Virus record (IMG/VR): IMGVR_UViG_3300025590_000027
Span: 1 to 31,439 of that record
Length of the DNA: 31,439 bases
Origin: a virus
Strand: one strand, 5' to 3'
Part shown: piece by piece, positions 2,441 to 31,439 of the stretch
Numbering within the stretch: the first letter of the stretch is position 1
Layout of the letters: each line of letters starts with the position of its first letter
The notes under the pieces: model-generated
What the model was told of the DNA's origin: nothing
Database searches by the model: none
The model's input: only the letters and a program-made list of their open reading frames with translations
Translations under genes and position numbers: made by a program

Positions 2441-3490
2441 ATGGACTTAACAAAAGAACAAAAAGAATTTATTCTAGAAAATAGCAAAAAAATAACTGAT
2501 CTTAACGAGATGACTAGAAAGTGTTTCGAGGATGATAGTCTTGACGGCAGGAATAAACAAGGAAGGCTTGTGCGTAAATTTATGATTGATAACGCAATAG
2601 AATTCAATACCCAATTTAAAGGTAAACAGGAAGAGATACAATTTTCTGAAGAGCAAAAAGAATTTATTATACAACAAGCGAGAGACGAGCTTTCTTCTTT
2701 AGCAATTGCGAAGCTTCTTTTTCCAGATAAGAGGGTAAACCCATTAAGTCTTGAGCAAAGGGCTGTTTTAGAGGTTATTAAGGATATTAACCCTGATTTC
2801 CTGCCATCTAAAGACAGCGGTGCGTTAGATTCTTATGTAGCGCCTAAAGCAGCAAGCAGAATAGTAAAAAAGATTAATGAGGCAACTGGTAATGCCTTCG
2901 AAGAGTCTAAGTTAAATAGGCAGCATCAAGTATACGTGGAAAGATTGGGTATAAACCTAAACAATTCGCGTTTCTTAAAAATAATTAATAACTATTTAGA
3001 CAAAAGCGACAGAGAGTTATTTGAGCATGAATTCATAAGGCTTACTTGGGATAAACCAGACTGTTCTGCTGATGAGATAAATCTTTATCTAAATGTATGT
3101 AAGGAAATTATTAATTTAGAAGTTATAAGCAAGCACTTAAATAAGTTGAACGACATGTTTGACGTAGCTGACGATCAAACAGAAATGTCTGTGCGCTTGG
3201 CCGAAATTATCAAAGCTAAAAGCTCAGAGTACCATCAATGCGAGGGAAGAATAGAAAACCTTACAAAAAAGCTACAAGGAGACAGGGCTACGAGAATGAA
3301 TACGAAGTCAAAAAATAATGCTTCTATTTTATCAATAGTTCAATTGTTTCAAGAAAAAGAAGAGAGAGACAACATGGTTAGAATGGCAGAGATGCAAAAA
3401 ATGACAGCCAAGAAGGAGGCTGAGAGGCTTGAGGGTATGGCTGAGTGGAAAGCTAGAGTATTAGGTATAAGTCAAGACGATGTCATTTAA
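2441..3490 (+). CDS. Putative terminase small subunit
   Basis: This 349-residue soluble protein has no known catalytic motif. It has an internal repeat: LTKEQKEFI at residues 3-11 and FSEEQKEFI at 68-76 each begin a helical segment of about 45 residues that could be a helix-turn-helix unit. The rest is helical, with a coiled-coil-like C-terminal region rich in Lys, Glu and Met. It precedes a nuclease and the large terminase in a chain of overlapping genes, where the DNA-recognising small terminase is normally found. The call rests on position, predicted DNA-binding repeats and the coiled coil. It is longer than the usual 150-200 residue small terminase, so another DNA-binding packaging protein is possible. 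Confidence 0.4.
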   Translation: MDLTKEQKEFILENSKKITDLNEMTRKCFEDDSLDGRNKQGRLVRKFMIDNAIEFNTQFKGKQEEIQFSEEQKEFIIQQARDELSSLAIAKLLFPDKRVNPLSLEQRAVLEVIKDINPDFLPSKDSGALDSYVAPKAASRIVKKINEATGNAFEESKLNRQHQVYVERLGINLNNSRFLKIINNYLDKSDRELFEHEFIRLTWDKPDCSADEINLYLNVCKEIINLEVISKHLNKLNDMFDVADDQTEMSVRLAEIIKAKSSEYHQCEGRIENLTKKLQGDRATRMNTKSKNNASILSIVQLFQEKEERDNMVRMAEMQKMTAKKEAERLEGMAEWKARVLGISQDDVI

Positions 3491-4400
3491 ATGCAAAGAA
3501 TGTCAGGGGGATTTCGAATCTCTTAGGGGTTTACATACCCACATCAAGAAACATGAAATGTTTCTTGGAGATTACTACGTAAAACACTACAAAAGAAAAA
3601 ACAAACTCACTGGCGAGCTTCTCCCTTTTAAAAATTATAAACATTACTTTGATCACGATTTTTCACAACCGCACCAACTCATGAAGTGGTGCAATAAAGC
3701 TGATCCAAAAGAAGTAAAAACTTATATACAGAAATTATTATGCGACAGAATAAAAAACAAAGAACTTAAATACGGTCCAACGGATTTGGAGCTTATAAGT
3801 GCTGGGTTGCCTTCTATTGATGTTTATAAAAAGTATTTTGGCAGCTACACGGCAGTATGTAATAAATGTGGCGTTGACCCACTGCTGGGTTGTAGATTGC
3901 CAAAAGGTTTTGACAATGACTTGTCTAAAACAAAAATTTTGATTGATACTAGAGAACAACAACCATTAACTTTTAAAAATTCAGAATTGCATAAGCTTGA
4001 TGTCGGCGATTATGGAGTGACATCGCAAGATTATGATTATACATATGTTGACAGAAAGTCATTTGGCGATTTTTGCGGGACAATAACAGTTGGTTATGCT
4101 CGTTTTTGCAAAGAAATGGATAGGTGTAGGTCTTTGGGCTCTTATTTGTTCGTGGTTATGGAGTTCGATATCAATGAGATAGAAAACCTCAATAAAAAAA
4201 GCTACAAGAAGTATAAGCTTGATTATGTTTTTCATAATATGAGAGAAATACAAAAACAGTATAGTGATTGTTGTCAATTTGTCTTTTCTGGTTCTAGAAA
4301 AAACAGTGAGCTCATTATACCAAAACTTCTTGTCATGGGAAAAAAATTATGGTCCACTGATATACAATATTTCTGGTCTAAATATATACAAAAAAAATGA
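3480..4400 (+). CDS. ERCC4/XPF-type nuclease with N-terminal C2H2 finger
   Basis: The 306-residue protein begins with a classical C2H2 finger, C-x2-C-x12-H-x3-H in the first 25 residues. Residues 98-133 (YGPTDLELISAG...YKKYFGSYTAVCNKCGV) resemble the homing-endonuclease-associated repeat that accompanies HNH and NUMOD proteins. The C-terminal half is an ERCC4 nuclease domain: IDTRE at 155-159, LDVGDY ending at 178, and DRKSFGD at 191-198. The signature ERKxxxD Glu is replaced by Asp191. ERCC4 nucleases cut branched or flapped DNA. Here the gene overlaps the putative small terminase by 11 bases and the large terminase by ATGA, so resolving replicative branches before or during packaging is a reasonable inference. 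Confidence 0.75.
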   Translation: MSFKCKECQGDFESLRGLHTHIKKHEMFLGDYYVKHYKRKNKLTGELLPFKNYKHYFDHDFSQPHQLMKWCNKADPKEVKTYIQKLLCDRIKNKELKYGPTDLELISAGLPSIDVYKKYFGSYTAVCNKCGVDPLLGCRLPKGFDNDLSKTKILIDTREQQPLTFKNSELHKLDVGDYGVTSQDYDYTYVDRKSFGDFCGTITVGYARFCKEMDRCRSLGSYLFVVMEFDINEIENLNKKSYKKYKLDYVFHNMREIQKQYSDCCQFVFSGSRKNSELIIPKLLVMGKKLWSTDIQYFWSKYIQKK

Positions 4401-12816: not shown

Positions 12817-13953
12817 TTAAACAACTCCAAACACTGGTCTGCTTTTAGCGGCGGCGTCACAAACAATACCTTGTGATATATCGTCAATTCCGCCGAGCTG
12901 GACATTAAACGTTAAATCAACACTTTTATTAGATCCTATGCTAGAAGAAAATGATTCTGAGTCTAGTGTTGCTCCTTTAAGAGTCCACCTGATGGCTTCG
13001 GTTTGGTCGCAAGCCTTTAGGACTAAGGACACGGAGCCGTCTGATGAATCACAGCTGTCAATTATATTGGCTAAGTTTCCAGCTTGAACATCACTGAGTA
13101 CAGCGTTGACGCTAAGACTTGCGTTAACTGGAAAGTCAACAACCCTAGCGAACGGGAACTTACTTCCTATTCTTTCAATAGGAGTCCTTGAAAGAGGAAG
13201 GGATAAAGAAGCACTTTGAACATGAAACGATCCGTTTCCACTAATAACAGAAAGGGTTCCGTCATCAGCAGCGCCGCCATCAAATCCAGGGAATTCAATA
13301 GTAATATCTCCTGGTCTTAAAGCTGTAGGCCCATCTTGGCCTGTATTTTTAGGTGTGAGAATTGATACTGTTCCAATAAGAGGTTCTCCTGATTCAATAT
13401 CAATGGCAGGGGTAGCTCCAGTCATGTTAAGGCTCGCAAAATCTGGACCAATCACCGATCCGTTATTAGAGCTTATGTTAGCGGCTTCATAAGTTGCAGT
13501 GGCTGTAGGTATTGAGCCTACAGAAAGATCAACTGAATAATCACTCAAGTAGGCATTGCCTATCCCAATGAGCCCATAAGGATCTCCACTAAGAAAAGTT
13601 GTTGAGTCTTGACCTTCGTCAGAAGTTACAATATAAAAGTTTTTCCCAGATGTTGCTTCAAGAGCGCCACTGGCGAATTGAGCTAACGAGTTAACATTAA
13701 AGCCCATTGCTTTTTCATTAATTCCATCACTAAGGTAATATGAATAATCAAAGTTAACAGTGGGAGCCTCAAGAATCAAAGAATCTATTCTTGCTAGGTT
13801 TCCATATTGATTAACGTCCTGTCTATTAATGGTGAATCCATAGTTTGCACTTTGGACCCTGATAAGTTCTTGATGTTCTCCAGTTGCCGTTGATGGGCAA
13901 TCTTTAGACACAAAAAGTGATTCCGATTGGTAAATTACTCTGTTTCTTGACAT
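12817..13953 (-). CDS. Tail tube protein (paralogue 2)
   Basis: The 378-residue, beta-rich protein is a close paralogue of its neighbour at 13992-15155. Both begin RNRVIYQSE and share RVQSANYGFTINRQDVNQ, GNLARIDSLILEAPTVNF, a SYSV/TL-DLSVGS-PTA signature, PLSRTPIER and SESFSSSIGSNKSVDLTF. Tail tube proteins stack as hexamer rings around the tape measure protein. Evidence is the gene order (last in a neck-to-tube operon), strong codon bias and lack of enzyme motifs. At 378 residues it is larger than many tube proteins, so it may carry an added surface domain in its middle third. The leader is A-rich with no clear Shine-Dalgarno. Confidence 0.6.
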   Translation of the reverse strand: MSRNRVIYQSESLFVSKDCPSTATGEHQELIRVQSANYGFTINRQDVNQYGNLARIDSLILEAPTVNFDYSYYLSDGINEKAMGFNVNSLAQFASGALEATSGKNFYIVTSDEGQDSTTFLSGDPYGLIGIGNAYLSDYSVDLSVGSIPTATATYEAANISSNNGSVIGPDFASLNMTGATPAIDIESGEPLIGTVSILTPKNTGQDGPTALRPGDITIEFPGFDGGAADDGTLSVISGNGSFHVQSASLSLPLSRTPIERIGSKFPFARVVDFPVNASLSVNAVLSDVQAGNLANIIDSCDSSDGSVSLVLKACDQTEAIRWTLKGATLDSESFSSSIGSNKSVDLTFNVQLGGIDDISQGIVCDAAAKSRPVFGVV

Positions 13954-13991
13954 ATTTTAAGAATGTTTGTTGTTTTTTTTAAATTTTTTAA

Positions 13992-15155
13992 TTAAGACCA
14001 AGGCAAGCTTGTATTGTTGCTTCCGCTAACAAAAATTCCTTTATCTAAATCTCTAACTCCACCAATTTGTGTTGAAAATGTTAGGTCTACGCTTTTATTT
14101 GATCCAATACTTGATGAGAAGCTTTCAGAATCAATAGTGCAACCCTTCATGTCGATATTCATTCCAACAGTAGTTCCGCCACACTCTTTAAGTTGCAAGC
14201 TTACGTTCTGAAGATTGCTATCACACCCGCTGATGAGGCTGGCTAGGTTGGCTGCTTGTGTGGTATTAACTATGGCATTAACTGTTAAAGAAGCGTTAAC
14301 TGGGAAGTCAACAACTCTAGCAAATGGGAACTTTGCACCAAGTCTTTCGATAGGAGTTCTAGAAAGAGGTAGGGAAAGAGAAGCGCTCTGAATGTGAATG
14401 GCTGAATCAGAACCATCCATAGTACTGAATGTTTGTCCGTTAAAGGCACTTAAATCAAGAGTTATATCTCCAGGTCTAATAGCTGAAAGAGTATCTTGAG
14501 CGTCTGCTGAGAAGTCTCCGTTATGAGAGTTTCCAGTAGAGTAAGGAAGAATTACTTCAAGGCCGACTGGCAAACCAGCTACAGGATTAACTCCTGGGCT
14601 TTCAATATTAATAAAACCTACTCCAGATACACCAGTAATACTTGCATCACTATTAATGTTTGAAGCTTCAAAAGATGCTGTTGCTGTTGGCAAAGAGCCT
14701 ACTGAAAGGTCCAAGGTGTAGTCTGTAAGGAATGCGTTACCAATACCTATAATTGTATTATCATTGGCTCCAGTTACTCTATTTAGGTTTGCGTCTCTTC
14801 CTTCTGGAACAGTTAGGATATAAAAGTTTTGTCCAGTACTATTAGATAAGTGGCCAGAAGCAAATTGAGCAGCAGATGGTTGAGAGGAATTTTCAACCCA
14901 AAAGTCAAGTGCTCTTTCATTAAAGCCGTTTGTTGGGTAGTAGGAGATATCAAAATTGACAGTCGGAGCTTCAAGAATCAAAGAGTCGATTCTAGCTAGA
15001 TTGCCAAATTGGTTAACGTCCTGTCTGTTTATCGTGAAGCCGTAGTTTGCACTCTGCACACGATGAAGTTGGGTATGGTCGCTTAAGCCTGTGGAGTTAT
15101 AGTCCTTGCTTACAAAAAGCGCCTCTGATTGATAGATTACTCTGTTTCTTGCCAT
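13992..15155 (-). CDS. Tail tube protein (paralogue 3)
   Basis: The 387-residue protein is the upstream member of the tandem tube-like pair; the signature stretches listed for the neighbour at 12817-13953 recur in the same order. Differences cluster in the middle (residues about 150-240), where this copy has a longer GVSGVGFINIESPGVNPVAG stretch. The two copies may mix in one tube, or one may be the tube and the other a cap or tip ring. The intergenic gap to the next gene is 38 bases and A/T-rich. Identification as tube is by gene order and family layout, not by a database match. Confidence 0.6.
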   Translation of the reverse strand: MARNRVIYQSEALFVSKDYNSTGLSDHTQLHRVQSANYGFTINRQDVNQFGNLARIDSLILEAPTVNFDISYYPTNGFNERALDFWVENSSQPSAAQFASGHLSNSTGQNFYILTVPEGRDANLNRVTGANDNTIIGIGNAFLTDYTLDLSVGSLPTATASFEASNINSDASITGVSGVGFINIESPGVNPVAGLPVGLEVILPYSTGNSHNGDFSADAQDTLSAIRPGDITLDLSAFNGQTFSTMDGSDSAIHIQSASLSLPLSRTPIERLGAKFPFARVVDFPVNASLTVNAIVNTTQAANLASLISGCDSNLQNVSLQLKECGGTTVGMNIDMKGCTIDSESFSSSIGSNKSVDLTFSTQIGGVRDLDKGIFVSGSNNTSLPWS

Positions 15156-15205
15156 AGCTATGATTATTTTAAGTGTTTACAGTTGTTTTTGTGTATTGTG
15201 AAAAT

Positions 15206-16078
15206 TTATGTATGTCTAAATCGATGATGTTGTATTTCAAAATCAATAAAACCAATGAAAATATCGTTGGTTAAAGATTTTCTTGCTCTATCTGTCAATT
15301 TTGATGTTGTAACGTTGTTTATATAAAGCTTGTTGCCATCTGAAGAATTTTGTACTAGATCGTTATAGTTGTAGGTGCCTGATTTAAGATCGTTAAATTC
15401 ATTATATGGGTGGTCACACATTGGTATAACTGGTATACATTCATTTTTAGAATCAGCAAATATAGAAAGAATGCCGTCTAGTTGATAGCTGTCTTCTGCC
15501 AGTACAGCAGCGGTAGATGTTATTGTTGTTTCTTCCATCCCCCCAAAAGCAAAGTCTTTATTTTGAGCTGTAGCTATAGATATGAATACTGCTGGAAGAA
15601 CTTGGTCATATGGATCTATATAAGACTCTATTGGTCTTGGGAGCCTAGAATTAATAACATGCTTTCTTTCTGCTATTAAATCATCTTCGCTTTCGTTGGT
15701 AAAATATATATTGAAGTCCTTTACGGAAAAATCGCATTTTATTTCATAATTTGGATTGGTTGTTTCCATTAGGATTCTTCCATTTTCAAAATCTATATCT
15801 CCTCCAACCCTTGTGTTTAGACCAGTATCATAAATCCCAGTTGGAGTGCCATTAGCCGTAAAACCGTCTGGTATTATAGCTCCATCAATAGAAGAATCGC
15901 TAACCCATTGTTTGTAAGGGCTTCCGTAAATTTGGCGAGAAGATCCCATTCTGTCATCCTCGTAATTAAAGAAATTGGCCCCAGTTATGTTTGTATAAGC
16001 CTTACCTTTAGAAAGGAGATAGTTATCAAACCAAAGTAAAACCGTATTTGTTACCTTGTGATGGTATTGTTCTATCAT
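15206..16078 (-). CDS. Putative tail terminator protein
   Basis: The 290-residue protein lies between a putative tail-completion gene (ATGA overlap at 16075-16078) and the tube genes, the usual place of the tail terminator that caps the tube and joins it to the neck. The N-terminus (HHKVTNTVLLWFDNYLL) could form the first helix of such a fold, followed by beta-rich sequence with ICEF-like strands and several Asp/Asn turns. It is longer than most tail terminators (130-200 residues). No conserved motif supports the call beyond position, so a different neck or tube-associated protein is possible. Confidence 0.35.
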   Translation of the reverse strand: MIEQYHHKVTNTVLLWFDNYLLSKGKAYTNITGANFFNYEDDRMGSSRQIYGSPYKQWVSDSSIDGAIIPDGFTANGTPTGIYDTGLNTRVGGDIDFENGRILMETTNPNYEIKCDFSVKDFNIYFTNESEDDLIAERKHVINSRLPRPIESYIDPYDQVLPAVFISIATAQNKDFAFGGMEETTITSTAAVLAEDSYQLDGILSIFADSKNECIPVIPMCDHPYNEFNDLKSGTYNYNDLVQNSSDGNKLYINNVTTSKLTDRARKSLTNDIFIGFIDFEIQHHRFRHT

Positions 16079-16653
16079 GACAGTTCGCTAAATTTTTTTT
16101 TGTATTTTTTTATTAAAGCAGAGATGTAAGGAGTGTTTTCAAATTTACCCCCTCTAACCTTGTTCTTTACCTGTATAGCTACACCAGATCTACTTGAAGC
16201 GTTAGATTTATTTAGCAACCTACCAAGACCAGATATTCCAGATTCTATTCCTTTCGCCCAACTTCTGCCAGTAGCCCAAGGCATTGGGGTAACGAGAAAG
16301 ATGTCATCTGCTTCTGGTATGTCGACGGTGTAAACAATACCTATATTGGCTTCACCAGATTCCTTAAAGCTTATTTGCTCAAGTATTTCCAATATTGGTT
16401 TTATTGGATCTTCCCCAGAATTAAAACCTATAAAACCAAAAAGGTTGGATTGGCCACCAAGAGTACCGCTTATATTTGATGCGTTTGGGCCAGATAATAT
16501 TTCAACAGTTACTGGATGAGTTAAGAACTCTTTAATCATGTCTTTTTTGACATTATCAAAGTTGTTTTTAAATTCTTTTTTAAAATCTCTTTTTAAGAAT
16601 TTAGGAGCTTGTTTTTTTAAAGAATTTTGTACGTCTATAGGTAGTTTAGCCAT
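16075..16653 (-). CDS. Putative tail-completion / neck protein
   Basis: The 192-residue basic protein has a Lys-rich, helical first third (LKKQAPKFLKRDFKKEFKNN) and a Gly-rich middle (SGTLGGQSNLFGFIGF). A conserved-looking MPWATGRSWAKGIESGISGLG stretch follows and the basic C-terminus ends YISALIKKYKKKF. Position, one gene after the putative head-closure protein and with one-base overlap at 16653, fits an HK97 gp10-type neck protein. This is a call by order, size and helical basic N-terminus. Confidence 0.4.
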   Translation of the reverse strand: MAKLPIDVQNSLKKQAPKFLKRDFKKEFKNNFDNVKKDMIKEFLTHPVTVEILSGPNASNISGTLGGQSNLFGFIGFNSGEDPIKPILEILEQISFKESGEANIGIVYTVDIPEADDIFLVTPMPWATGRSWAKGIESGISGLGRLLNKSNASSRSGVAIQVKNKVRGGKFENTPYISALIKKYKKKFSELS

Positions 16654-17117
16654 TATTCTGGTTTAGCTTCGTCAAGAGGGGTCAAAAAGAACTGATAAAA
16701 TACATTACCAGTTATGCCGAATGGGCTTCCGTCACTTTTAATTGTAAACATTCTTCCGTCAAACTCAACTCTTCTTGCTTCTTGTATAAAATCAAAACCT
16801 TCTTTTTTAACTATTATCTTGACGGAACCTTTCGGTAAAACGGTTTTTGTTTGAGTTTTAAAGTTATTTAAAAGTTCTTCTTCTGTTTTTATGTAATAAA
16901 CCCTAGCTTGGAAAGTTTTAGGCGTGACCGTATATTCTACGCTCTCGTTTTTCCCAGTATTGGCTCTGCCATATACAGTGTTATAACAAGGGTCATAAGA
17001 TATGATTGTTTTTTTACCATCCTTGTAAACAGTTATTGTTTGAGCAAAAGTTGTATGAAGACAATCGTAAAAAGAGTTGATTTCAGAAATTTTTGATGAA
17101 GATAAAAAGCCAGCCAT
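16653..17117 (-). CDS. Putative head-closure / head-tail joining protein
   Basis: This 154-residue protein is first in the minus-strand operon. After a short helix (SSSKISEINSFYDCLHTTFAQ) it is mostly beta: ITVYKDGKKTII, EYTVTPKTFQARVYYI, SVKIIVKKEGFDFI and RMFTIKSDGSPFG. A small beta-barrel of about 110-150 residues is the normal form of head-closure proteins that plug the connector. Likely transcribed from the divergent region 17118-17162. Call by size, beta content and order. Confidence 0.45.
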   Translation of the reverse strand: MAGFLSSSKISEINSFYDCLHTTFAQTITVYKDGKKTIISYDPCYNTVYGRANTGKNESVEYTVTPKTFQARVYYIKTEEELLNNFKTQTKTVLPKGSVKIIVKKEGFDFIQEARRVEFDGRMFTIKSDGSPFGITGNVFYQFFLTPLDEAKPE

Positions 17118-19233: not shown

Positions 19234-22200
19234 ATGCCAATAAAAATTCCAGTAGTACAAACAGGCTTAGAGAAAAGCATTGCGGATTCAGCTAAAAAAG
19301 CTGGCAGAAATTTAAAAATAAATTTAGGAACCAACGCTAAGGATATTAAATCTTTAGAACAGCCTCTTGGTAGAATTACTGGTCAGGCAGACGAATTTAC
19401 AAAATCAATGGAGGCTGCAAATGCCCGTGTTTTGGCGTTCGGAGCTTCAGTAGGAATAATTAATAGCGTAGTACAATCTTTTAAAATTTTAATATCTACA
19501 ACTATTGAGGTAGAAAAAAGTTTAGCAAAAATTAATTCCATACTTAAGACTAACGCAAGTGGTCTCTCGGACCTAAAAGACCAGATATTTAGTATAGCAA
19601 AAGGAACAGAACAGACTTTTGATACCGTAGCAGAAGCCGCCCTAGAACTATCTAGGCAGGGTTTAAGTGCAACCGAGGTTACAAAACGATTAAACGACTC
19701 TCTAATTTTAGCCAGACTTTCTGGATTAAGTGCATCTGAAGCTGTTGCTGGTTTAACTGCGGCGGTTAACAGTTTTACAAAAGCTGGTTTAACGACAAGT
19801 GAAGTTCTTAATAAAATAAGTAATGCAGCCAACCAGTTTGCTGTTTCTGAACGAGACTTGATTGAAGGATTTAAGCGCTCTGCATCTGTTGCGGAACTGG
19901 CTGGAGTTAGTATAGATGAACTTGGGGGTATTATAACCGCAGTCCAACAGAAAACTGCCCGTGGTGGAGCAGTCATAGGAAACTCCTTTAAAACTATTTT
20001 TACAAGAATAGGAAGAAAGGATAATTTAAATCTTTTAAAAAGCTTGGGCGTTGATATAACAGACGTACAAGGAAAAATATTACCTGCCACAAAACTAATA
20101 GAAAATCTTGCTGGGAAACTGGATAGCTTAAACGAAATTCAAGTTAGATCAATAACTCAAAAAATTGGTGGTGGATTCCAGATAGCCCCGTTGCTGGCAG
20201 CTCTTTCGGATTACAGCAGCGAATCTTCAGTGGCCATAAAAGCTACCGAAGCTTTTAGAAACGCAACAGACGAGGCTTATCAAAAGAACATAGTTCTAAA
20301 TAAAACTTTAGCCGCATCAATCAACTCTACAGTATTGAGTGTTAAGGAGCTGGCTAATGCTCTTGGTGAAATTGGAGTAACAGACACATTTAAAAGTATA
20401 ATTGGTTCTGTTGGTGCTTTTGTAGAAACAATTAAAAAAGTTTTAACTGGCGAGGGTATAGGATCTACATTTGCTAGGGGTGTAGTGTCTGGTATCAGTA
20501 GTGTTTTAATTAAGGGTGGTTTAGCACTTTTTGCTTTGCTTGTAGGCAAATTAACTTTACAGCTAGCTAAATTTGGAGTAGAATCTTTCAAAACATTTTT
20601 CGGTTTAAACAAGGCTGCAAAACAACTTGAAAACACTCAGAGACAAATAGCAGCGACGCTTCTTAAGGATAGTAGTATAAGGAAACAAATACTAAATATA
20701 GAAAACAGTACAGCTACCGTGGCTGTAAAAAGAGCGCAACAGGCGGCGGTGTTTACAACAGCGCTAAACGAGCAATTAAGAATAGTTACTCAGATAAATC
20801 GAATTTCTGGATCTATTTCTGGCCCAGTTGTCAGGGGTACTCAAAAAGTAAGGAGTCAAGGTTTGGTGGATAGTTCTAGAACTGGTAGTGTTCGTGGTGC
20901 GGGTGGATTTTTGCCAATAGGTGCCGAACAAAAAGATATTAATAGAGGCGTTGGTGGCGCACCAAAAGGATCAAAGCCAGTTGTTATTCCTAACTTTGCC
21001 TTTGGAATGGGTAAAAGGGGAACAATGGTTGCTAACGATAGTGAATATATCGTACCTAATTTTGCTGGAGGCGGATCTGCTATATTTAATCAAGACATGG
21101 TCAACAATATTGGCTTGCCTGAAGGGGCCAAGAAGATTAATTCTGCTGGGGGATTTATACCCAACTTTGCTTATACTTTAGGTACAAACAAAGACAATAT
21201 TGCAATAAGGTCTGTGACCTCTCCTCTTGATAAAAAAACAGGGGGAAGAAAAAGAGGAACAGGGGCTGTGAAGCAAGCCATCCAAGCCGCCGTAACCAAA
21301 GCAAACGAAAGAGGGTTTGCTAAAATCACTGCGGACATTATTTCTGATTCGTCGCTAGGAGCCTTTACTAAGTATTTCGGAAGAGCCAAAAGAGGTAAAA
21401 ATGTTTGGGATAAATCTGAATTTAGAAAAAATGCAGCTGGAGGTTATGTTCCTAATTTTGCAAAGGAATACATAAACCAGCGTGGTCAAGATTTTGTTTT
21501 GCTTACAGGTTCTTATGGTGAAGATAAAGCCGATTCTTCATTTTATGCAGTTAAAGATAAAAAAAATCAAACAAGAATTTATGAGTCTGCTGAGAAAGCG
21601 GGGCAAAAAGGTTTTGGTGAGGAACTTCTTACCAAGGTAGATGTACCGACATATCAAGCAAGAAAGCCAAAAGGTGATGCTGGGGGTAGTTCTTACATAG
21701 ATAAATTAGAAGCTGAAATTAGAGATTTAGGAGCCGATCAAGCAGTTAAAACAGCTGGGGGTATTTCTAGCCCAATCAATGTCAGGTCTGAAAGTGCTAA
21801 TGAATTAAAAGGAAGGTTCCAGAAGGGAGCGGTAAATTCTTTAGCTGGAAGTGTTTTTGAGGTTGCTTTAGCTTCTCTATTAGATGGAGATGGATTTAAG
21901 GATTACGCATCAAGAACAGAAAACTCATTAATAGATTTGCCAAAGTCTAAGGGCATATATGAAGCTTTTGGAGTTAAAGAAGGCCAGGGCAAGTCAGGTG
22001 CCGAAGTTAAGGGGTCATCTAGCAAGACACTTCAGAAGTCGGCAGCTAAAAAGTTTTTTGATGTATTAGTTGGTAGCAAACCAGCATTCGTAAGAAAGGG
22101 CAATGAGGTAGATCAGGCAGATCTTGTAGGTAAAAAACTATTAAATGAGGATGCAAAAACATTAGGGTTTCTAAAAAAAGGCCCCAACGGAAGGTTTCCT

Positions 22201-25200
22201 AATGGAACTTATACAATAAAACAGGGTGATTTAAGTAGATTAGAGGGTCGGTCTTTTACTTCTGACAAAAGAGGTATATTGGAAAGCTCTGCTTCTGGTT
22301 ATATTCCTAACTTCGCAAACCAAGAGACCCCTCTTGAGAATGCAATTCGAAGAGAAAGGGCTGCTGGTCTAAATGCTAATCAAATAAGAGTAAATCAAAG
22401 TGGGAAATTAAGAAACAGCCAAAACCCGCAAGGTTTAGCTGTGACAAACACTAGGGATGAACCTACTGGCAGGATACCAAACTTTGCAATAACAAAAGAT
22501 ACACTTAGTGATTCTGGAATATCTTCTTCAAGCGTAAAAGCTTTTGCTTCAAGCCTTGACTCTTTAAACAAAAAAATAGCAGAGCTAAACCAAGAAGTAC
22601 AAAAAGGCACTAAATCTTATGAGGAGGCATCCAAAGAAGCTTCTGAATATGCGAAAACACTAGCAGAAGGAAAAAAGAAAATTTCTGGTGTGGCAAAAGA
22701 GGGTATTTCAAACGTAGCTTCTGGATCTATAGAAAAGAAAGAAGAAAAAGTCAGAGGAGATACAACCGCAAAGCTTATAGGTCTTTCTGCGATAGCATTT
22801 ACTTTACAGGGGGCTTTCTCAAGTATTGAAGGAGAGTTGACTGGATTTCAAAAAGGTTTAGCTGGGGCTGCTGAGAGTGCCGCTGGAGCCGTAACTACAT
22901 TTGCTTTATTTGAATCTTTCGGCCAAGATTTAACAGATACGAATTCTGGTCTTCTTGGTTTGATCAACGGCAAAGGAGAAGGCAAAGGTGGTGGCCCAGG
23001 TACTTTAGGATTGCTGGGAGGAAAAGGTGGCAAGACTGGAAAAAAATTTGCAACAGGACTTAGTAAAACATTAAAATTTGTAACTAAAAACTTCACAAAA
23101 CTTCTTCCTTTTGTTGGCCAAGCAGTTGTTGCTTTTCAAGGTCTTAGCGCTGCTTTTAAGTTTTTAAAAGGTATTGAGTTATTGAAACCTCTTACTGACG
23201 TTATTCAAAAAGGTATTGATGGGTTTAAAGGCTTTTTTACTAATATAGCAGAAAAGCTCAATATTATTGATACGCCAGCAGAGAAGGCGGCACAGGCTCT
23301 TAGTAAATTAGGCGAAGCAGCTATTCAAAGCGGTTTAGATCTTTCAAAAGGGCCAATAAACTTAGCTGAAGGTAGGTTGAGTTCAAGAAGGGCCGCTTTA
23401 GCTGGAGCTAAAGGAGAAGATGGAAAGCTTCTTACAGACCCTGCTGAGATTGTAAGAGAGTTATTAAATAAAAGATCAGAAAGAGGAGGAGGTGTTTTAG
23501 GTACAATTTCAACTGGAGATAAAAATGATAAAACTTTAGGCGAAGAAATTTCAAAACAGTTTGAAAGAGGGATTCTTAATACTTTAGGAACAGAAGACCG
23601 CAAAGTAATTATAGATAATCCAGAAAAAATAGGAGAAGTTCTTGATAAGCAGTTTAATAAACTTTCTAAAGACCAACAGAGAGAAGCTAGGGCGGGAGTA
23701 GGAAAAATAACTGGATTGCAAAGTAAGTTAGAGAGAGCGAAAACAGAAGGAGATGTAGAAGAGCAGGAAAGGCTTCAAAAACTTCTTATAAAAGAAGAGG
23801 AATCTCAAGCAAATATATTAAAAATCCTAATAGAGAAGAGCAAAGAAAGAAATAAAGAAGAGGAATTTCAGAAAAAAATAGTGAAACTTGACTCTGAAAG
23901 GTTTAAGATTCAATTAGATTCTAATCTCGAAAGAGCTAAAACTTTAGCTTCAATTAAAACTGAAGCACAATTTCAATTAGAGCTAGAAGCTTCTTCTGGT
24001 AGAGCTGGAAAATTAAGAAAAGATCAAATAGCAAAAGAAATTCGCGGACTCGAAGCACAAAAGAAACTTAACCAAGACATATCTAACGCTTTTGTTAAGA
24101 GGATACAGGGCAACCAAGCTATTCAAAACGTTTTGCAACCAGACGCCACAGATAAGATAAAACAAGAGACTGCCAATAAGATAAAAGACATTCTTGTTGA
24201 CACTAATATAATTTTACTTTCTGGTAAAAAAATAGAGGGTGATATAGCTAATATTGTAGAGGATAGATTAAGTAAGATAAGTGGGATAGAAAAGTTAAGT
24301 GGAGATATTGTTAGCGTTATTAGAACCGAAATAACAGAAATAACCAAAAAAGCCCAACTTGAGCAAGCCATAACAGAACAGGCTAACGCTCGTCTTAGAT
24401 TGTTGAAGCTTGAGACAGAAGAGGTGTCAGAACAAAGAAGACAAAGGGACCTTCAAAGAGAAGCTGGAGAGATCGAAGCTAGAAGCTCTTCTAATAAAAA
24501 TATAAGAGCCCTAGAAATAGATAAACTAAAAGAAGAAGCAAATTTGGTAGGTGTATTTGGAAGCAGAAACCAAGCTGGCGGGAAAAAAAGAATTGCAAAT
24601 CTAGATTTTGAAATAGGACAGGAACAAATAAAAGAAGAAAAAAGACAGTTTTTGGTTGGAGAGCAAAACCAATTAAGGGATCGTATTCGTAGCTCTGGGT
24701 TTGGTATAGACAAAGAAAGGTCGCAAGAAGCTATAGTGGATTCAGCTACACTGGAAAATCTTCCAAAAATAGCTGGCCAAATTGAGACAGCTATTGTTTT
24801 GCAAAGAAGACAGCAAGAGGAGCAAGCGAAAAAAGACTTGGCTGCCGCTGAAGCCATAATCCAAGGCCAAAGACAAAATGTAGCTGATTTTTCTACGGCA
24901 AGTAAAACCGCAACAACCGCTATGAAAACCAACGTAGATCTTTTCGGAAGTTGGGTAAGCAAGCTTGTAAATAAAGAAGCTATAGATGTAGCTTTTAAAA
25001 ATATAAAAGAATCAGAGTCTTCCCTGTCCACTAAAAAAGATGAAGTAAAGACGTTAGATAAATCTATTATAAAAGAGGAATTTGTGATAAGTAATCTTAG
25101 CAATCAAATATCAAAAACCAATTCGGATATTAGCAAGGCGGCAGAAATTTTATCAAAACTTAAACCTCGTTTTGATAGAATTTTAGCTGCTGGTGGAAAA

Positions 25201-27738
25201 AACCCAAATATAGCAAATCAATCTACACCAGAGCAAAGATTACAACGAGACGAACTTGGTCTACCGTGGGCGGATATTAGAACTGAATACAAAAATACTG
25301 TAGAGACATTTGAAAAATATACAAAAAAATTAGAAAAAAATGAAGAAAAGCTTCGAGGCTTGGTAGAAAAAAGGCGTAAAGCTCAAAACGAATCTACTAG
25401 GCTTGAAGAGAAAAAGTCTGACACAACAGTCGATATAATTAATTTACAAAAAAATATAGATAAAGACAAATCAACTATTAAAAGGCTTGGGGGTGATGCA
25501 GTAAAAATAGAAGATAAATCAGGAGAGAATGCCTCAAAAGGCACAACTACCGCTGTAGGCAAAGCAACTGAGGCTATAAAATTATTGCCAACACAAATTG
25601 CCGATTTGCTAAAGGGGCTTCCTCTTATTGGCGAAGCAATTGCTTTGACGCAGCAAAAAAATAAACAGGATCAAACTTTTAAAAGAGAGTTTGAATTTAA
25701 TTATTTAACAGGTGAAAAACCTACACTAAAAACTCTTAATGAAATAACAAAAGATTTTTTTACTCCTGCAGCTCCTATTGATTTTACTCCTGCAGCTCCT
25801 ATTGATGTATCAGGTACTGTAGCAAAAACTGCAGCTAGTGTAAAAGAAGTTGAATCTAAGAGTAATGATAGTCAAACAAAACTAGATTTACAAAGAAATA
25901 AGTCATTATTAGATATAAACGCAAGTATTCAAACTGCTAACTCTTTAGCTGCTCAAGCTGCCGCACAGCAACAAGATACTTTAGGACAGTCTTTATTTAA
26001 AGCTAGAACATCTTTTGCAACTCAAGATTTAAAAAGTTCTTTGGTTACTGGGACAGCCGCTAAAGCTGGTATCGAAGTGGGTAAAAAAGGAGGTAGTAAT
26101 GAAGAAAGAGTTTTGGCTGAAAACAAGATTCTAGCTACACTTGAACTGGAGGCTGAAATTGCTAGCGAAATAGACGCAGCTAAAAAAGTTGCTCTTGAAT
26201 TCCAGTTAGAAAAGACTATTCAAATAGCAGAACTTAACACTAAGATTGCTGATCTTTTACAAGCTGGTGACCTTGATGGTGCTAGGGTGTTGTTGACTAA
26301 TATAAAAGAAATAGAGAACAGAACCCTTAGTATAGGTAAACAGCTTTATGCGGCTCTTGTTGTAACTCCTGAACAAGGCAAAGAAAATTTCAAAACCGCT
26401 TTTGTAAATGCTTCTGTTCAATTCAGAGATAATGTCATAGAAGGAATGACGGAAGCAATAACACAAGGGGGAGATTTAAAAGATATTCTTTTAGACGCTG
26501 CTACATCTTTCTTAAAAGAACTTTACAAAGCTAACTTACAAAGTATAGCAGGAGACTTGTCTAATGCATTTTCAAGTGTTGGAAAATCTATTTCATCAGC
26601 GCTGGGTTATGCCGCTGGAGGTAAAGTTACTGGAGGTAGTGGGGCTCGAGATGATGTGCCAGCAATGCTCATGGGTGGAGAATACGTGGTGAAAAAAAGT
26701 TCTGTATCAAAATTCGGAGAAAAATTTATGGACTCCATTAACCGAGGCGTTGTCCCAGGTTACAACCAAGGAGGCTTGGTTAAAGAAGACGAAAACGAAT
26801 TAAGAAACGCACCAGCGCAAACTGGAAAAGGTGGATTCTTTACTCCAGGAATTGAAGGTTATGGAGAAATATCTGGAAGACAGAATCTGCTTGATTTTGC
26901 AACTCAGGGGTCTACTGCTGGGTTAACAGATGTAATATCTGATTTGGGAGGAACTGGCGCATATATAAATCTTGAGCCAGAAAGCGGAAGGTTGACAAAC
27001 TTTGGAAGAAATGTTGGTACCCCAGAACAAGTTAGAGTGCAAGACGCCAAAAGACAAGCTCTCGGATTGGTTTTTGAATGGCAGGAAGTGAGGGATAGAC
27101 AACGCTTTGAATATGAGCAGAGAGAAAAGGAGCGTAAGAAAGCCCTAAAGAGAGCACTGCTTTCAGCAGCCATATCAGCTGCTACTGGATTTGTTACTGA
27201 TAAGATTACTGGTAGCTTTGGTAGTGGCGGTGAACCATTTGGACCAGATGGTTCACCGCCACAAACGATCGATAGTCCAATCCGTTCCGCTTCTGCAAGG
27301 CCTCCAAATTTTGCTACTGGAGGAATGATTCCTCCTCAACCTGGGGTGGATACAGTTCCAACTATGTTGAATGGAGGTGAGTTTATAATGAACAGCGCCG
27401 CAGTAAGTAGAGTAGGAGAGTCTAATCTGCAAGGCTTAAATGCTGGTGGTCAAAGTATAGAGTCGGACACTGGCATAAGCAAAGATGTCATAGATAAGCT
27501 TGAAGATTTGATTGATGTTTCAAAAGATAAAGTTGGGGATATAAATATTACAATAAATGGCGTAGGAGGTCAAACACAAGGCGCAGGGAGTCAACAAGAA
27601 CAAGGGCAACAAGCACAAACAGGAGCCATGGGTCAGGGAACAAATGAAGATAACAAGAGAATGGCTAATCTTATTAAAGAGCAGGTCCTGCTTGTTTTGT
27701 CAGACGAAAAAAGATTGGGTGGTCAATTAAGAAGATAA
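19234..27738 (+). CDS. Tape measure protein with embedded extra domains
   Basis: The 2834-residue protein sets tail length and is ejected first. Residues about 100-300 match the TP901-type tape measure core (GTEQTFDTVAEAALELSRQG, SGLSASEAVAGLTAAVNSF, ARGGAVIGNSFKTIFTRIG). A membrane-like stretch lies at 424-447 and another near 1181-1195. (I/V)PNFA occurs at 585-589, 607-611, 642-646, 739-743, 1024-1028 and 1081-1085, with PPNFA at 2690-2694. Between the fourth and fifth copies lies a 280-residue domain with E876, D901 and E924-x-K926, a PD-(D/E)XK-like order. Residues 1350-2000 are coiled coil. Two VPxML-x-GGE motifs (2475-2483, 2708-2716) mark the usual C-terminal region. It is preceded by putative chaperones and followed by minor tail genes. 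Confidence 0.85.
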   Translation: MPIKIPVVQTGLEKSIADSAKKAGRNLKINLGTNAKDIKSLEQPLGRITGQADEFTKSMEAANARVLAFGASVGIINSVVQSFKILISTTIEVEKSLAKINSILKTNASGLSDLKDQIFSIAKGTEQTFDTVAEAALELSRQGLSATEVTKRLNDSLILARLSGLSASEAVAGLTAAVNSFTKAGLTTSEVLNKISNAANQFAVSERDLIEGFKRSASVAELAGVSIDELGGIITAVQQKTARGGAVIGNSFKTIFTRIGRKDNLNLLKSLGVDITDVQGKILPATKLIENLAGKLDSLNEIQVRSITQKIGGGFQIAPLLAALSDYSSESSVAIKATEAFRNATDEAYQKNIVLNKTLAASINSTVLSVKELANALGEIGVTDTFKSIIGSVGAFVETIKKVLTGEGIGSTFARGVVSGISSVLIKGGLALFALLVGKLTLQLAKFGVESFKTFFGLNKAAKQLENTQRQIAATLLKDSSIRKQILNIENSTATVAVKRAQQAAVFTTALNEQLRIVTQINRISGSISGPVVRGTQKVRSQGLVDSSRTGSVRGAGGFLPIGAEQKDINRGVGGAPKGSKPVVIPNFAFGMGKRGTMVANDSEYIVPNFAGGGSAIFNQDMVNNIGLPEGAKKINSAGGFIPNFAYTLGTNKDNIAIRSVTSPLDKKTGGRKRGTGAVKQAIQAAVTKANERGFAKITADIISDSSLGAFTKYFGRAKRGKNVWDKSEFRKNAAGGYVPNFAKEYINQRGQDFVLLTGSYGEDKADSSFYAVKDKKNQTRIYESAEKAGQKGFGEELLTKVDVPTYQARKPKGDAGGSSYIDKLEAEIRDLGADQAVKTAGGISSPINVRSESANELKGRFQKGAVNSLAGSVFEVALASLLDGDGFKDYASRTENSLIDLPKSKGIYEAFGVKEGQGKSGAEVKGSSSKTLQKSAAKKFFDVLVGSKPAFVRKGNEVDQADLVGKKLLNEDAKTLGFLKKGPNGRFPNGTYTIKQGDLSRLEGRSFTSDKRGILESSASGYIPNFANQETPLENAIRRERAAGLNANQIRVNQSGKLRNSQNPQGLAVTNTRDEPTGRIPNFAITKDTLSDSGISSSSVKAFASSLDSLNKKIAELNQEVQKGTKSYEEASKEASEYAKTLAEGKKKISGVAKEGISNVASGSIEKKEEKVRGDTTAKLIGLSAIAFTLQGAFSSIEGELTGFQKGLAGAAESAAGAVTTFALFESFGQDLTDTNSGLLGLINGKGEGKGGGPGTLGLLGGKGGKTGKKFATGLSKTLKFVTKNFTKLLPFVGQAVVAFQGLSAAFKFLKGIELLKPLTDVIQKGIDGFKGFFTNIAEKLNIIDTPAEKAAQALSKLGEAAIQSGLDLSKGPINLAEGRLSSRRAALAGAKGEDGKLLTDPAEIVRELLNKRSERGGGVLGTISTGDKNDKTLGEEISKQFERGILNTLGTEDRKVIIDNPEKIGEVLDKQFNKLSKDQQREARAGVGKITGLQSKLERAKTEGDVEEQERLQKLLIKEEESQANILKILIEKSKERNKEEEFQKKIVKLDSERFKIQLDSNLERAKTLASIKTEAQFQLELEASSGRAGKLRKDQIAKEIRGLEAQKKLNQDISNAFVKRIQGNQAIQNVLQPDATDKIKQETANKIKDILVDTNIILLSGKKIEGDIANIVEDRLSKISGIEKLSGDIVSVIRTEITEITKKAQLEQAITEQANARLRLLKLETEEVSEQRRQRDLQREAGEIEARSSSNKNIRALEIDKLKEEANLVGVFGSRNQAGGKKRIANLDFEIGQEQIKEEKRQFLVGEQNQLRDRIRSSGFGIDKERSQEAIVDSATLENLPKIAGQIETAIVLQRRQQEEQAKKDLAAAEAIIQGQRQNVADFSTASKTATTAMKTNVDLFGSWVSKLVNKEAIDVAFKNIKESESSLSTKKDEVKTLDKSIIKEEFVISNLSNQISKTNSDISKAAEILSKLKPRFDRILAAGGKNPNIANQSTPEQRLQRDELGLPWADIRTEYKNTVETFEKYTKKLEKNEEKLRGLVEKRRKAQNESTRLEEKKSDTTVDIINLQKNIDKDKSTIKRLGGDAVKIEDKSGENASKGTTTAVGKATEAIKLLPTQIADLLKGLPLIGEAIALTQQKNKQDQTFKREFEFNYLTGEKPTLKTLNEITKDFFTPAAPIDFTPAAPIDVSGTVAKTAASVKEVESKSNDSQTKLDLQRNKSLLDINASIQTANSLAAQAAAQQQDTLGQSLFKARTSFATQDLKSSLVTGTAAKAGIEVGKKGGSNEERVLAENKILATLELEAEIASEIDAAKKVALEFQLEKTIQIAELNTKIADLLQAGDLDGARVLLTNIKEIENRTLSIGKQLYAALVVTPEQGKENFKTAFVNASVQFRDNVIEGMTEAITQGGDLKDILLDAATSFLKELYKANLQSIAGDLSNAFSSVGKSISSALGYAAGGKVTGGSGARDDVPAMLMGGEYVVKKSSVSKFGEKFMDSINRGVVPGYNQGGLVKEDENELRNAPAQTGKGGFFTPGIEGYGEISGRQNLLDFATQGSTAGLTDVISDLGGTGAYINLEPESGRLTNFGRNVGTPEQVRVQDAKRQALGLVFEWQEVRDRQRFEYEQREKERKKALKRALLSAAISAATGFVTDKITGSFGSGGEPFGPDGSPPQTIDSPIRSASARPPNFATGGMIPPQPGVDTVPTMLNGGEFIMNSAAVSRVGESNLQGLNAGGQSIESDTGISKDVIDKLEDLIDVSKDKVGDINITINGVGGQTQGAGSQQEQGQQAQTGAMGQGTNEDNKRMANLIKEQVLLVLSDEKRLGGQLRR
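20986..22488 (+). repeat. Cluster of six (I/V)PNFA motifs in the tape measure gene
   Basis: Six copies are coded at 20986-21000, 21052-21066, 21157-21171, 21448-21462, 22303-22317 and 22474-22488. Most are preceded by Gly-Gly-aromatic or Ser-Gly-Tyr (GGFIPNFA, GGYVPNFA, SGYIPNFA). Spacer lengths are about 17, 30, 92, 280 and 52 residues. Codons differ between copies (CCT AAC TTT GCC, CCA AAC TTT GCA, CCT AAC TTC GCA), so the motif is kept at protein level and is not a recent DNA duplication. Role unknown: linker, cleavage site or docking motif. Confidence 0.85.
21463..22302 (+). other. Embedded 280-residue domain, PD-(D/E)XK nuclease-like
   Basis: Tape measure residues 744-1023, bracketed by PNFA motifs. 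Residues 870-880 (LAGSVFEVALA) hold E876, IDLPK holds D901, and GAEVKGS holds E924 and K926. The order Glu, Asp, Glu-x-Lys and the surrounding hydrophobic strands fit the core of PD-(D/E)XK nucleases. A Gly/Lys/Ser-rich N-terminal part precedes it. This is a pattern match by eye and could be chance; no domain search was possible. Confidence 0.4.
25759..25806 (+). repeat. 24-bp perfect tandem duplication in the tape measure gene
   Basis: Two perfect 24-base copies (25759-25782 and 25783-25806) encode FTPAAPID twice, residues 2176-2191. Identical at the base level, so the duplication is recent. It adds 8 residues to a Pro-rich hinge between coiled-coil regions. Confidence 0.9.
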
Positions 27739-28535: not shown

Positions 28536-29557
28536 TGGCTACGAATTATTCATCAGGGGAACTGTATTATGATAGGAGTGAAAATCTATCTGGTATACAA
28601 AGCGCTTTGGTTTCGGATTATGACCCCACTTTCGGGAGTTCTGTTACCTTTTCTTCCAGTCTTAGAGAATATCGTCAAGATGATAATTATTTTTATATTC
28701 ATCCAAAAGACGTAAATTCTTTAAAGGCTTCTTATCAGGTTGTTTTTAAAGAAAACGGAAACGATGCAGTTAAGTTGGTAAACGAGCTAGAAAAAAAAGG
28801 AGGACATATTCCGTTTTATCTGAAAACTGATCGAGACGTATACAAAGATACATATGGATATTGTGATTCTTATAGTGTGACCCATAAGAATGAAAATAGT
28901 TTTGAAATAAGAGTAGACTTTAACGCCGATGAAATTCCGAATCTTTTTGAATGGAAAAGTAAATCTTATGTAAATTTTCCATTTAAAAAATGGAATGGAA
29001 ATAATAAGAGCTACAAAAAAAATGATGTTGTTTATTATAAAGGTGACGCTGGAAGTCAGAATAAGATATATAACTTTTTTTATTGCATTAGAGATCATGT
29101 TTCTACAGAGTTTGTGACGCCAAACGTTTTTATAGCAGAAGAAACATCTCCGTGGACAAGAGAATTTTGTTGGTGTCCAGACGCAAAGTGGCAAAACTCT
29201 GTGTCTTTTGACATTTCAAGGTTTGAATCAGATTTTTCACAAAGAGAAAAAAATAGAATTAATTCGGCTGTTTTTCCGATTGACTATAAATTTACAGCGA
29301 TAGACACAAAACAGTTGAAGGCTATGCTTCATTTTTTAGAGACAAGGGGTGGTTATATGAGATTTAAACACAGAATACCTTCTTTGTATAATAGGCCTAA
29401 GATTTTAATTGCCACAGAATGGACTCATACTTGGTTGGGTTGTGATACTCATGAACTGTCTATAAAAATGAAAGAAGATCCTCTTGGTTCTTTAAGTGAA
29501 AATTTCGAAGAACAAGTAGGAGGCTTCACCTACACATTCCCATTTGAACTATCATAA
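28535..29557 (+). CDS. gpM-like minor tail protein, duplicated, with carbohydrate-binding-like insert
   Basis: The 340-residue protein starts and ends at TAATG overlaps. It appears to hold two related units: residues 70-145 (DAVKLVNELEKKGGHIPFYL...CDSYSVTHKNENSFEIRVDF) and 265-325 (DTKQLKAMLHFLETRGGYMRF...CDTHELSIKM). Both have a helix, GG-hydrophobic-F stretch and a late Cys-Asp strand, as in lambda M-type minor tail proteins. Between them, residues 150-216 (KKWNGNNKSYKKNDVVYY, then FFYCIRDHVST) resemble a CBM5/12-type chitin or polysaccharide-binding module, W...Y..GD.V.Y. It is probably part of the tail tip. Motif-level recognition only. Confidence 0.55.
   Translation: MATNYSSGELYYDRSENLSGIQSALVSDYDPTFGSSVTFSSSLREYRQDDNYFYIHPKDVNSLKASYQVVFKENGNDAVKLVNELEKKGGHIPFYLKTDRDVYKDTYGYCDSYSVTHKNENSFEIRVDFNADEIPNLFEWKSKSYVNFPFKKWNGNNKSYKKNDVVYYKGDAGSQNKIYNFFYCIRDHVSTEFVTPNVFIAEETSPWTREFCWCPDAKWQNSVSFDISRFESDFSQREKNRINSAVFPIDYKFTAIDTKQLKAMLHFLETRGGYMRFKHRIPSLYNRPKILIATEWTHTWLGCDTHELSIKMKEDPLGSLSENFEEQVGGFTYTFPFELS
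28982..29183 (+). other. Carbohydrate-binding-module-like segment (CBM5/12 type)
   Basis: Residues 150-216 of the minor tail protein: W153, then SYKKNDVVYYKGD, an aromatic strand FFYCIRDHVS and a further Trp (SPWTREFCW). The W/Y-GD-V-Y order is that of CBM5/12 modules. It interrupts two gpM-like units, as an inserted receptor-facing loop would. Confidence 0.4.
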
Positions 29558-31439
29558 TGAGAGATTTATTAAAAAGCAACAACACTCTTGTTTTAATAAC
29601 TGAGTCTCCAGCCTTTAAGGTAACAGATGAAACTGGTTATCTTTTTTCGGCTGTTCAAAATTCATCGTATTCATTCCAGATGGATAGAGCTAGTGTTAGA
29701 CAAATAGGGAGAAAAAAGCCACAGATAGATGATATCAATAGACATCCAGATGTCGATTTAAATATTGATTATTTTGCATCTCCAGCGATGTATAACGAAG
29801 TTCTTATGGGTTTGAATTTCTCAATTGGCAGAAATTTTGTTCCCGTTGGTTTATTGGAGGGCTTAAATGAAAAGTCTTATAATTTTCATTTTTACAACCA
29901 CCCAGAACAGGGTTCTGACGCAATAGAATATTTTAAGTCTGCTGATTTATCTATACCTAATAGCGGTGAGGTTATTTCTATAGGAAATGCATATTTAAAT
30001 AGTTATGGAATGAGTTTTCAAAATAATTCTATTCCTTTAGCAAGAGCTACTTATAAATGTTCAAATATCGAAGCATCTTTGTACGAAGGTCCAATTAAAT
30101 CTCCAGCAATAAATCTTCAAAGTGGAAATTCTTTAGGCGTTGGTAATATAAATTTGCAAGATTCGGTTTTATCTGGGACTGTAAACGAAATACCGTTTGA
30201 TTCGTCAAACCCCACTATAGTTAATAGCAGTTGCGGTCTTGATTTAAGACTTGAAAACATTCAAGTTGGAGGACAATCGATATCTGAAGAAGAGCACATT
30301 ATAGAGTCTTTCGATTTTAGGGTTAATTTAGAAAGAGTACCTTTGTATGGGCTTGGGTCTGATTATGTTTATGGTAGAAAAATACAATACCCAATAAGAG
30401 GTGACATTTCAATATCATCAAAAGTAGATAACTATGACTCTGGTTTTATCTCTGGCTTATTGGCTTCAGAAGAGGATTATGAATTTGAATTTACGGTTAG
30501 AGACGAACTTTTTGCTGTAAAACTTTTATTTGATAACGTCAAGCTGAACTCTTTTACATATTCTATGGGCGTAAATAATGAAATGATTTACGACGCAAAT
30601 TTTCAGTTTTTATCTTACGACAAGAAAGGTTTAAATGGTTGGCCATTTTCTCTTGGGCCAAGCGTCGTTTATGATTCTCTTGATTTACCTATTAGAAGTA
30701 CCGCAGAAAACATACCAACCCAATGGAGTCAAAACGATCTTACGGCTGCATTATTATATTTAGGTAATAATGTCTCTGAAGTTGGCGACTTTGCTTTCGA
30801 TGGTTGCCAAAACATAACAGGTAGACTTTTTGTCCCTGACACAGTATTATCTATTGGTCAAGGATCTTTTAAGGATTGCAGTAGTTTTGATGGTCTTTTG
30901 TTTTTAAGTGACTATCTTAAAGAAATTAAATCAGATGCATTTTTAAATTGTGTTGGTTTTGATAGCCTTTATCTGGGAAATAGTATATCTAGTGTAGGAG
31001 ACGGGGCTTTTTATAATTGTAATAGCATTACAGGAGATTTATCTATACCAGAAAGTTTAACAAGTATTGGTTCAGAAGCTTTTTATAATTGTTCTAGCTT
31101 TACTGAAAAAATAATTATTGGACAAAATGTTACAATCGGAGCAAACGGTTTCGAAGGTTGTAATTTCGATACATTAGAAGTATCAAATTCAGTAACTAAT
31201 GTGCAAAACGGAAATTATGATTATTGGTCAGATTGGGATATAAATTTATCTTTTGATTTATCTGTTAAAACAATTGGTGATTATTCTTTCGATAATTATA
31301 TTTTTATTGGAGATTTAAATATCCCTAAGTTTGCCGAAAATATAGGAAAGGGTGCTTTTTTAAACTGTCTAGGTTTTGATGGGTCTTTAAATTTTTTAGG
31401 GTCCAAACTCAAACTTATTGATAATAGCGGTTTTAAAAA
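29557..31439 (+). CDS. Tube-like/leucine-rich-repeat tail adhesin (paralogue 5), partial
   Basis: Starts at a TAATG overlap (29555-29559) and stays open to the window end, 627 codons so far. Residues 1-360 share the tube-like family layout: VQNSSYSFQMDRASVRQIG, LNSYGMSFQNNSIPLARATY and FRVNLERVPLYGLGS...ISISSKVDN. From about residue 390 a BspA-type leucine-rich repeat (LRR_5) begins, with nine copies of (I/V)-x2-x2-(A/S)-F-x2-C such as VGDFAFDGC, IGQGSFKDC, VGDGAFYNC, IGSEAFYNC and IGKGAFLNC, about 22-24 residues apart. The tube-like part would dock on the tail tip and the repeat would act as a host-surface ligand. The last repeats and the stop lie beyond the window. Confidence 0.65.
   Translation, partial: MRDLLKSNNTLVLITESPAFKVTDETGYLFSAVQNSSYSFQMDRASVRQIGRKKPQIDDINRHPDVDLNIDYFASPAMYNEVLMGLNFSIGRNFVPVGLLEGLNEKSYNFHFYNHPEQGSDAIEYFKSADLSIPNSGEVISIGNAYLNSYGMSFQNNSIPLARATYKCSNIEASLYEGPIKSPAINLQSGNSLGVGNINLQDSVLSGTVNEIPFDSSNPTIVNSSCGLDLRLENIQVGGQSISEEEHIIESFDFRVNLERVPLYGLGSDYVYGRKIQYPIRGDISISSKVDNYDSGFISGLLASEEDYEFEFTVRDELFAVKLLFDNVKLNSFTYSMGVNNEMIYDANFQFLSYDKKGLNGWPFSLGPSVVYDSLDLPIRSTAENIPTQWSQNDLTAALLYLGNNVSEVGDFAFDGCQNITGRLFVPDTVLSIGQGSFKDCSSFDGLLFLSDYLKEIKSDAFLNCVGFDSLYLGNSISSVGDGAFYNCNSITGDLSIPESLTSIGSEAFYNCSSFTEKIIIGQNVTIGANGFEGCNFDTLEVSNSVTNVQNGNYDYWSDWDINLSFDLSVKTIGDYSFDNYIFIGDLNIPKFAENIGKGAFLNCLGFDGSLNFLGSKLKLIDNSGFK
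30730..31439 (+). repeat. BspA-type leucine-rich-repeat coding region
   Basis: About nine repeats of 22-24 residues in the C-terminal part of the tail adhesin, each with a G-x2-(A/S)F-x2-C turn and a hydrophobic L.IP or LYLG strand. Repeat Cys are mostly kept. The DNA copies are diverged, so this is an old expansion. It continues past the window. Confidence 0.75.

Follow-up and report, generated by a model that had tools for sequence, protein, structure and literature searches.

A GY/FIPNFA peptide as the putative joint of exchangeable cargo modules inside phage tape measure proteins

The tape measure proteins (TMPs) of a large group of uncultured phages probably contain an internal cassette site, in which the peptide GY/FIPNFA serves as the joint and exchanged cargo would be delivered together with the TMP. 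As judged by comparison of related sequences, GY/FIPNFA is a module joint, and cargo is exchanged, gained and lost as whole units at or beside the codons of the motif. Such motif-marked exchangeable domains suggest that the proteins which the tails bring into bacteria as cargo are swapped by these phages. The case was recognised in the window, i.e., the whole stretch of 31,439 nucleotides analysed here (IMG/VR record IMGVR_UViG_3300025590_000027), and was extended to the relatives of its TMP.

The motif array and its relatives

The TMP of the window is encoded by an ORF of 2834 aa (19234–27738, plus strand, as are all array features below). It contains the conserved N-terminal TMP core (PF10145, residues 125–312, 19606–20169, E 1.8e-27), also matches several PHROG tape-measure families, and is a very long ORF among tail genes, with minor-tail genes immediately downstream and neighbours that are conserved in relatives. 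Six (I/V)PNFA copies follow the core, all in frame and exactly where the preliminary description had placed them (residues 585, 607, 642, 739, 1024 and 1081), whereas 2000 shuffles of the same protein gave on average 0.0135 PNFA and 0.0005 [IV]PNFA and never more than one. Copies 1 (IPNFA, 20986–21000) and 2 (VPNFA, 21052–21066) lie inside a constant small beta domain (residues 582–626, 20977–21111) that is conserved in relatives. Copy 3 (IPNFA, 21157–21171) joins the constant segment to cargo module 1 (92 aa, 21172–21447), copy 4 (VPNFA, 21448–21462) joins this module to cargo module 2 (280 aa, 21463–22302), copy 5 (IPNFA, 22303–22317) joins cargo module 2 to a constant DEP module (NPQGLAVTNTRDEPTG, 22318–22473), and copy 6 (IPNFA, 22474–22488) ends the array.

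A seventh copy that had been counted with these, PPNFA at 27301–27315 (residue 2690), is present and in frame, but it is isolated from the other six, and PNFA is absent from the C-terminal half of the closest relative, L002, so it was excluded from the array. A VPTMLNGGEF element directly follows PPNFATGGMI at this position; in L002, ATGGYIPN stands ahead of VPAMLTGGEF. A C-terminal element of this type might have given rise to the array motif; an hhalign comparison of the constant beta domain with the C-terminal "VPAMLxGGEFV" elements gave no support for homology (probability 0.5%). No RNA structure was found at motif copy 3.

Searching viral sets for further PNFA-array proteins, by whole-protein search (70 loci) and by a DNA pattern for A-G-G-[FY]-I-P-N-F-A (110 stretches), yielded a non-redundant set of 125 ORFs from viral contigs, each with at least two PNFA. 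The core profile detected the TMP core in 109 of them, and most of the remaining 16 start where the stored stretch is cut off, or close to it. These loci contain 2,706 further ORFs, and 19 of them gave 51 matches to the motif; 16 of the 19 have the TMP core, and three are long ORFs whose motifs resemble an array. On this sequence survey, the motif is confined to TMP-like ORFs. No capsid gene with the motif was seen among the ORFs of the relatives' loci. Homologues retain the motif, and the free loss that the preliminary description had named as evidence against its reading did not appear. In a phage collection of 50,697 records, no record contained the array region or the two constant modules, the single match being at chance level (E 2). 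Three matches came from genome bins, two of them Flavobacteriaceae and one on a contig with phage structural genes; since all three could be phage contigs placed in bins, the host is a guess.

The relatives share a common order, from the N to the C terminus, of core, constant three-motif segment, usually one to three variable cargo modules, constant "TRDEP" module and tape. In the main group, the constant triple consists of VVIPNFAFG, EYIVPNFAGGG 22 residues further on and GFIPNFA after another 35 residues, and each variable module terminates in GY/FIPNFA, while the TRDEP module contains NPMGLAVTNTRDEPxG followed by IPNFA or a variant and then the tape. A second group has GHIPNYANPE in place of the opening triple and otherwise follows the same rule. 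Across the 75 arrays scored with both constant parts, 56 carry one cargo module, 12 two, five three, one four and one none. Segments of at least 60 residues, some constant ones included, fell into 60 clusters, 39 of which have a single member. L176 has ten PNFA copies, some of which form a second group towards the C-terminal end of the TMP (residues 2602–2854), so that cassettes may occupy more than one TMP site. In L055 and L057, the first array segment (about residues 553–1140 and 553–1220, respectively) includes a long low-complexity stretch with repeats like GSKNQTAPPQERQ within the cargo segment.

Exchange of modules at the motif and selection on its peptide

The preliminary description had called the motif-delimited segments cargo-like, and they do behave as exchangeable modules. 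In pairwise comparisons, 1474 of 2280 right ends of conserved blocks fell 0 to +4 residues from the first residue of a motif; many of these ends repeat one shared layout, and the stricter counts at cargo-side motifs, where 50% of right and 57% of left block ends lay at the motif against 9% and 11% for random array positions, thus matter more. Junctions were read at base level in five pairs (L006/L007, L080/L113, L047/L067, L004/L035 and L066/L069), and in each the DNA ceases to be identical inside the motif codons or at most a few bases away from them. Near-identical flanks surround unrelated cargo in 48 TMP pairs (60 residues before the cargo at least 90% identical, 40 after it at least 80%, cargo with less than 10% shared 4-mers), although these pairs are not independent events, because many of them share ancestry. 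Unrelated cargo within near-identical flanks indicates replacement rather than drift. Gain or loss of a whole unit could be read in L154, which carries a 280-aa module 66% identical to cargo module 2 of the window directly after the third constant motif and has no counterpart of the 92-aa module, the gap running exactly from motif to motif. Cargo module 2 also matches L077, at 29% identity over 127 residues.

The 271 copies of G[YF][IV]PNFA in relatives are encoded by 176 different 21-mers, only two of 245 within-gene motif pairs are identical in DNA, and codons also differ between the window copies, as had been pointed out before; since codons vary freely and the peptide is conserved, the motif is maintained at the protein level, in line with the selection on the protein originally put forward. 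Within the motif, P-N-F is strict among relatives, which argues for more than a flexible linker. Within one family, cargo modules gave dN/dS values mostly of 0.12–0.5, with one pair at 0.8, indicating that the cargo is under purifying selection.

An AlphaFold model of window residues 556–1119, made with 48 relatives, has a mean pLDDT of 76. In this model, copies 1 and 2 are predicted as strands of the small constant domain, with pLDDT near 90, whereas copies 3 and 5 lie in stretches with pLDDT below 50, copy 4 is immediately N-terminal of the ordered 280-aa module, and copy 6 is at the end of the DEP module, adjoining a low-confidence stretch; the 92-aa module is poorly predicted. The suggestion that motifs mark domain boundaries therefore holds for copies 3–6, each found in a linker or at the edge of a domain, but not for copies 1 and 2, which are inside the predicted beta domain.

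Cargo identity and the possible role of the joint

The commonest cargo superfamily comprises 102 modules and conserves E...D...(E/D)xK. In its commonest family (76 sequences), to which cargo module 2 of the window belongs (E876, D901 and K926), D and K never vary and E is conserved to at least 90%. E, PFDF and DAK are found in a second cargo family, which occurs in 23 arrays and proved related to the commonest (96.1%, E 3e-9). The order E, D, (E/D)xK is that of PD-(D/E)XK nuclease residues, and cargo module 2 follows it. Nevertheless, no nuclease fold was detected for cargo module 2 by Pfam (76 members), PDB profile search, Foldseek with two AlphaFold models, or hhalign to the Mrr_cat alignment, and the PD-(D/E)XK core is not plainly visible in the second AlphaFold model; with no detectable fold or profile similarity, it was not filed as a PD-(D/E)XK nuclease. 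A Walker A P-loop is present in a third cargo family, which occurs in 10 arrays and includes a module of L004. Apart from this P-loop, searches of Pfam, PHROGs, NCBIfam and PDB for known effector domains of the polyvalent-protein class were negative. The 92-aa cargo module 1 has a weak match to an acetyltransferase family (E 0.015), and no relatives were found for this module or for the modules of L084. Labels assigned by eye to single modules of L084, L176 and L148 (ADP-ribosyltransferase-like, kinase-like) were dropped after searches gave no support for them.

It is reasonable to suggest that the TMPs of this phage group have a site for cassettes that lies after the N-terminal core and ahead of the coiled tape, with the GY/FIPNFA joint peptide on both sides of every cargo domain, and that cargo could be exchanged by recombination between phages. 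As the tail empties, cargo would enter the host envelope or cytoplasm alongside the TMP, and could act early in the host, in most cases as a nuclease that depends on metal, in some as a P-loop enzyme. For phage JBD30, it has been proposed that the TMP exits the tail during infection, its C terminus leading (PMC11445458). The most likely role of the joint, which we would put at nearly an even chance, could be that of a short docking strand by which each module is packed or aligned for threading; it is favoured because copies 1 and 2 are predicted strands of a folded constant domain and because P-N-F is too strict for a plain linker.

The main rival to a docking strand, ranking second and rather unlikely in our estimate, is that GY/FIPNFA is a site at which a phage or host protease cuts, freeing single cargo domains during assembly or after entry, in parallel with the supposed role of pre-toxin and peptidase domains in polymorphic toxins. 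The strictness of P-N-F would equally fit a protease site, as would the position of the motif on both sides of cargo, mostly in low-confidence linkers, and TMPs of other phages are cut or have been proposed to be cut (JBD30). However, the position of copies 1 and 2 within a predicted beta fold speaks against cleavage, and cuts at all copies would separate the TMP core from the tape. Moreover, no protease was recognised in or beside the TMP, and the sole peptidase-like match in the window is a sub-threshold one to a capsid scaffold protease, and the motif was seen in no capsid gene.

It is less probable still that the variable modules are inert spacers or fast-drifting tail parts instead of delivered effectors, with the motif as a structural turn. 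The great variation in TMP length, the structural setting of copies 1 and 2, and the lack of a confirmed enzyme fold in any module except the P-loop would be consistent with that reading, but near-identical flanks around unrelated cargo point to replacement, catalytic-type residues are kept though the rest of the module diverges, the cargo is under purifying selection, and one cargo family has a Walker A motif. A role purely as a recombination site, i.e., a short repeated DNA for cassette exchange whose peptide has no function, would explain why break points fall at the motif; it is very improbable and was rejected on the codon variety described above, as the peptide is conserved and the DNA is not, and copies 1 and 2 flank no cassette. 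It is possible, with rather less assurance than for the cassette site itself, that these TMPs are a modular injection platform that swaps early-acting enzymes, with the joint as a specific docking or release signal otherwise unknown from any system.

Known systems and other genes of the window

Two known kinds of system resemble the array TMPs in part. Polyvalent proteins of phages and conjugative elements are large and multidomain, and it has been proposed that they bring several effector domains into the host together with the DNA (Iyer et al. 2017, PMC5512222); the array TMPs likewise have several unrelated domains per polypeptide that vary between relatives. Polyvalent proteins are not TMPs, the term "tape measure" being absent from the text, and in the part of the source covered, no short peptide joining all the domains was found. 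Polymorphic toxins combine a constant delivery part with variable domains that are replaced as cassettes by recombination (PMC3482391), and a constant part with replaceable cassettes is also found here. In polymorphic toxins, however, the toxin domain is C-terminal and an immunity gene lies alongside, whereas in the array TMPs the cassettes are internal, with the motif on both sides, and the constant DEP module and then the tape come after them. Enzymatic domains built into the TMP, as proposed here, are known from T5 pb2, Basilisk gp47 and phiIPLA35, but these either degrade the wall or are peptidases, and they lack an exchange site bounded by a motif. No paper on the motif was found in the open-access literature. 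As far as the open-access papers searched go, TMP-internal cassettes with a joint peptide on both sides appear to be new, while polyvalent-protein-like multidomain cargo and polymorphic-toxin-like cassette exchange are of a known kind.

A 2023 survey of TMP mosaicism found a mosaic signal in TMPs but confirmed no genuine recent case (PMC10684548). By contrast, the pairs described here are clear cases of genuine recent domain exchange within TMPs, with junctions readable at base level, the type of case that the survey could not confirm. Splitting TMPs at GY/FIPNFA is a simple rule that reveals dozens of uncharacterised virion-carried protein families. If the cargo is delivered, the array TMPs would represent a natural platform for injecting proteins through the tail, with cargo that can be exchanged, and would be a source of proteins that act early against the host or its defences.

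Elsewhere in the window, five consecutive minus-strand genes (12817–17117) lie within an otherwise plus-strand structural block, and this run is conserved beside the TMP in most relatives. Two neighbouring genes of the run (12817–15155) are paralogues starting with ARNRVIYQSE or SRNRVIYQSE, and a 3′-truncated plus-strand gene (29557–31437) resembles them in the style of its N terminus, after which come BspA-type leucine-rich repeats (LRR_5, E 6e-32). Upstream of the terminase, a plus-strand gene (3480–4400) matches the ERCC4-type nuclease family phrog_3490 (E 5.5e-12).
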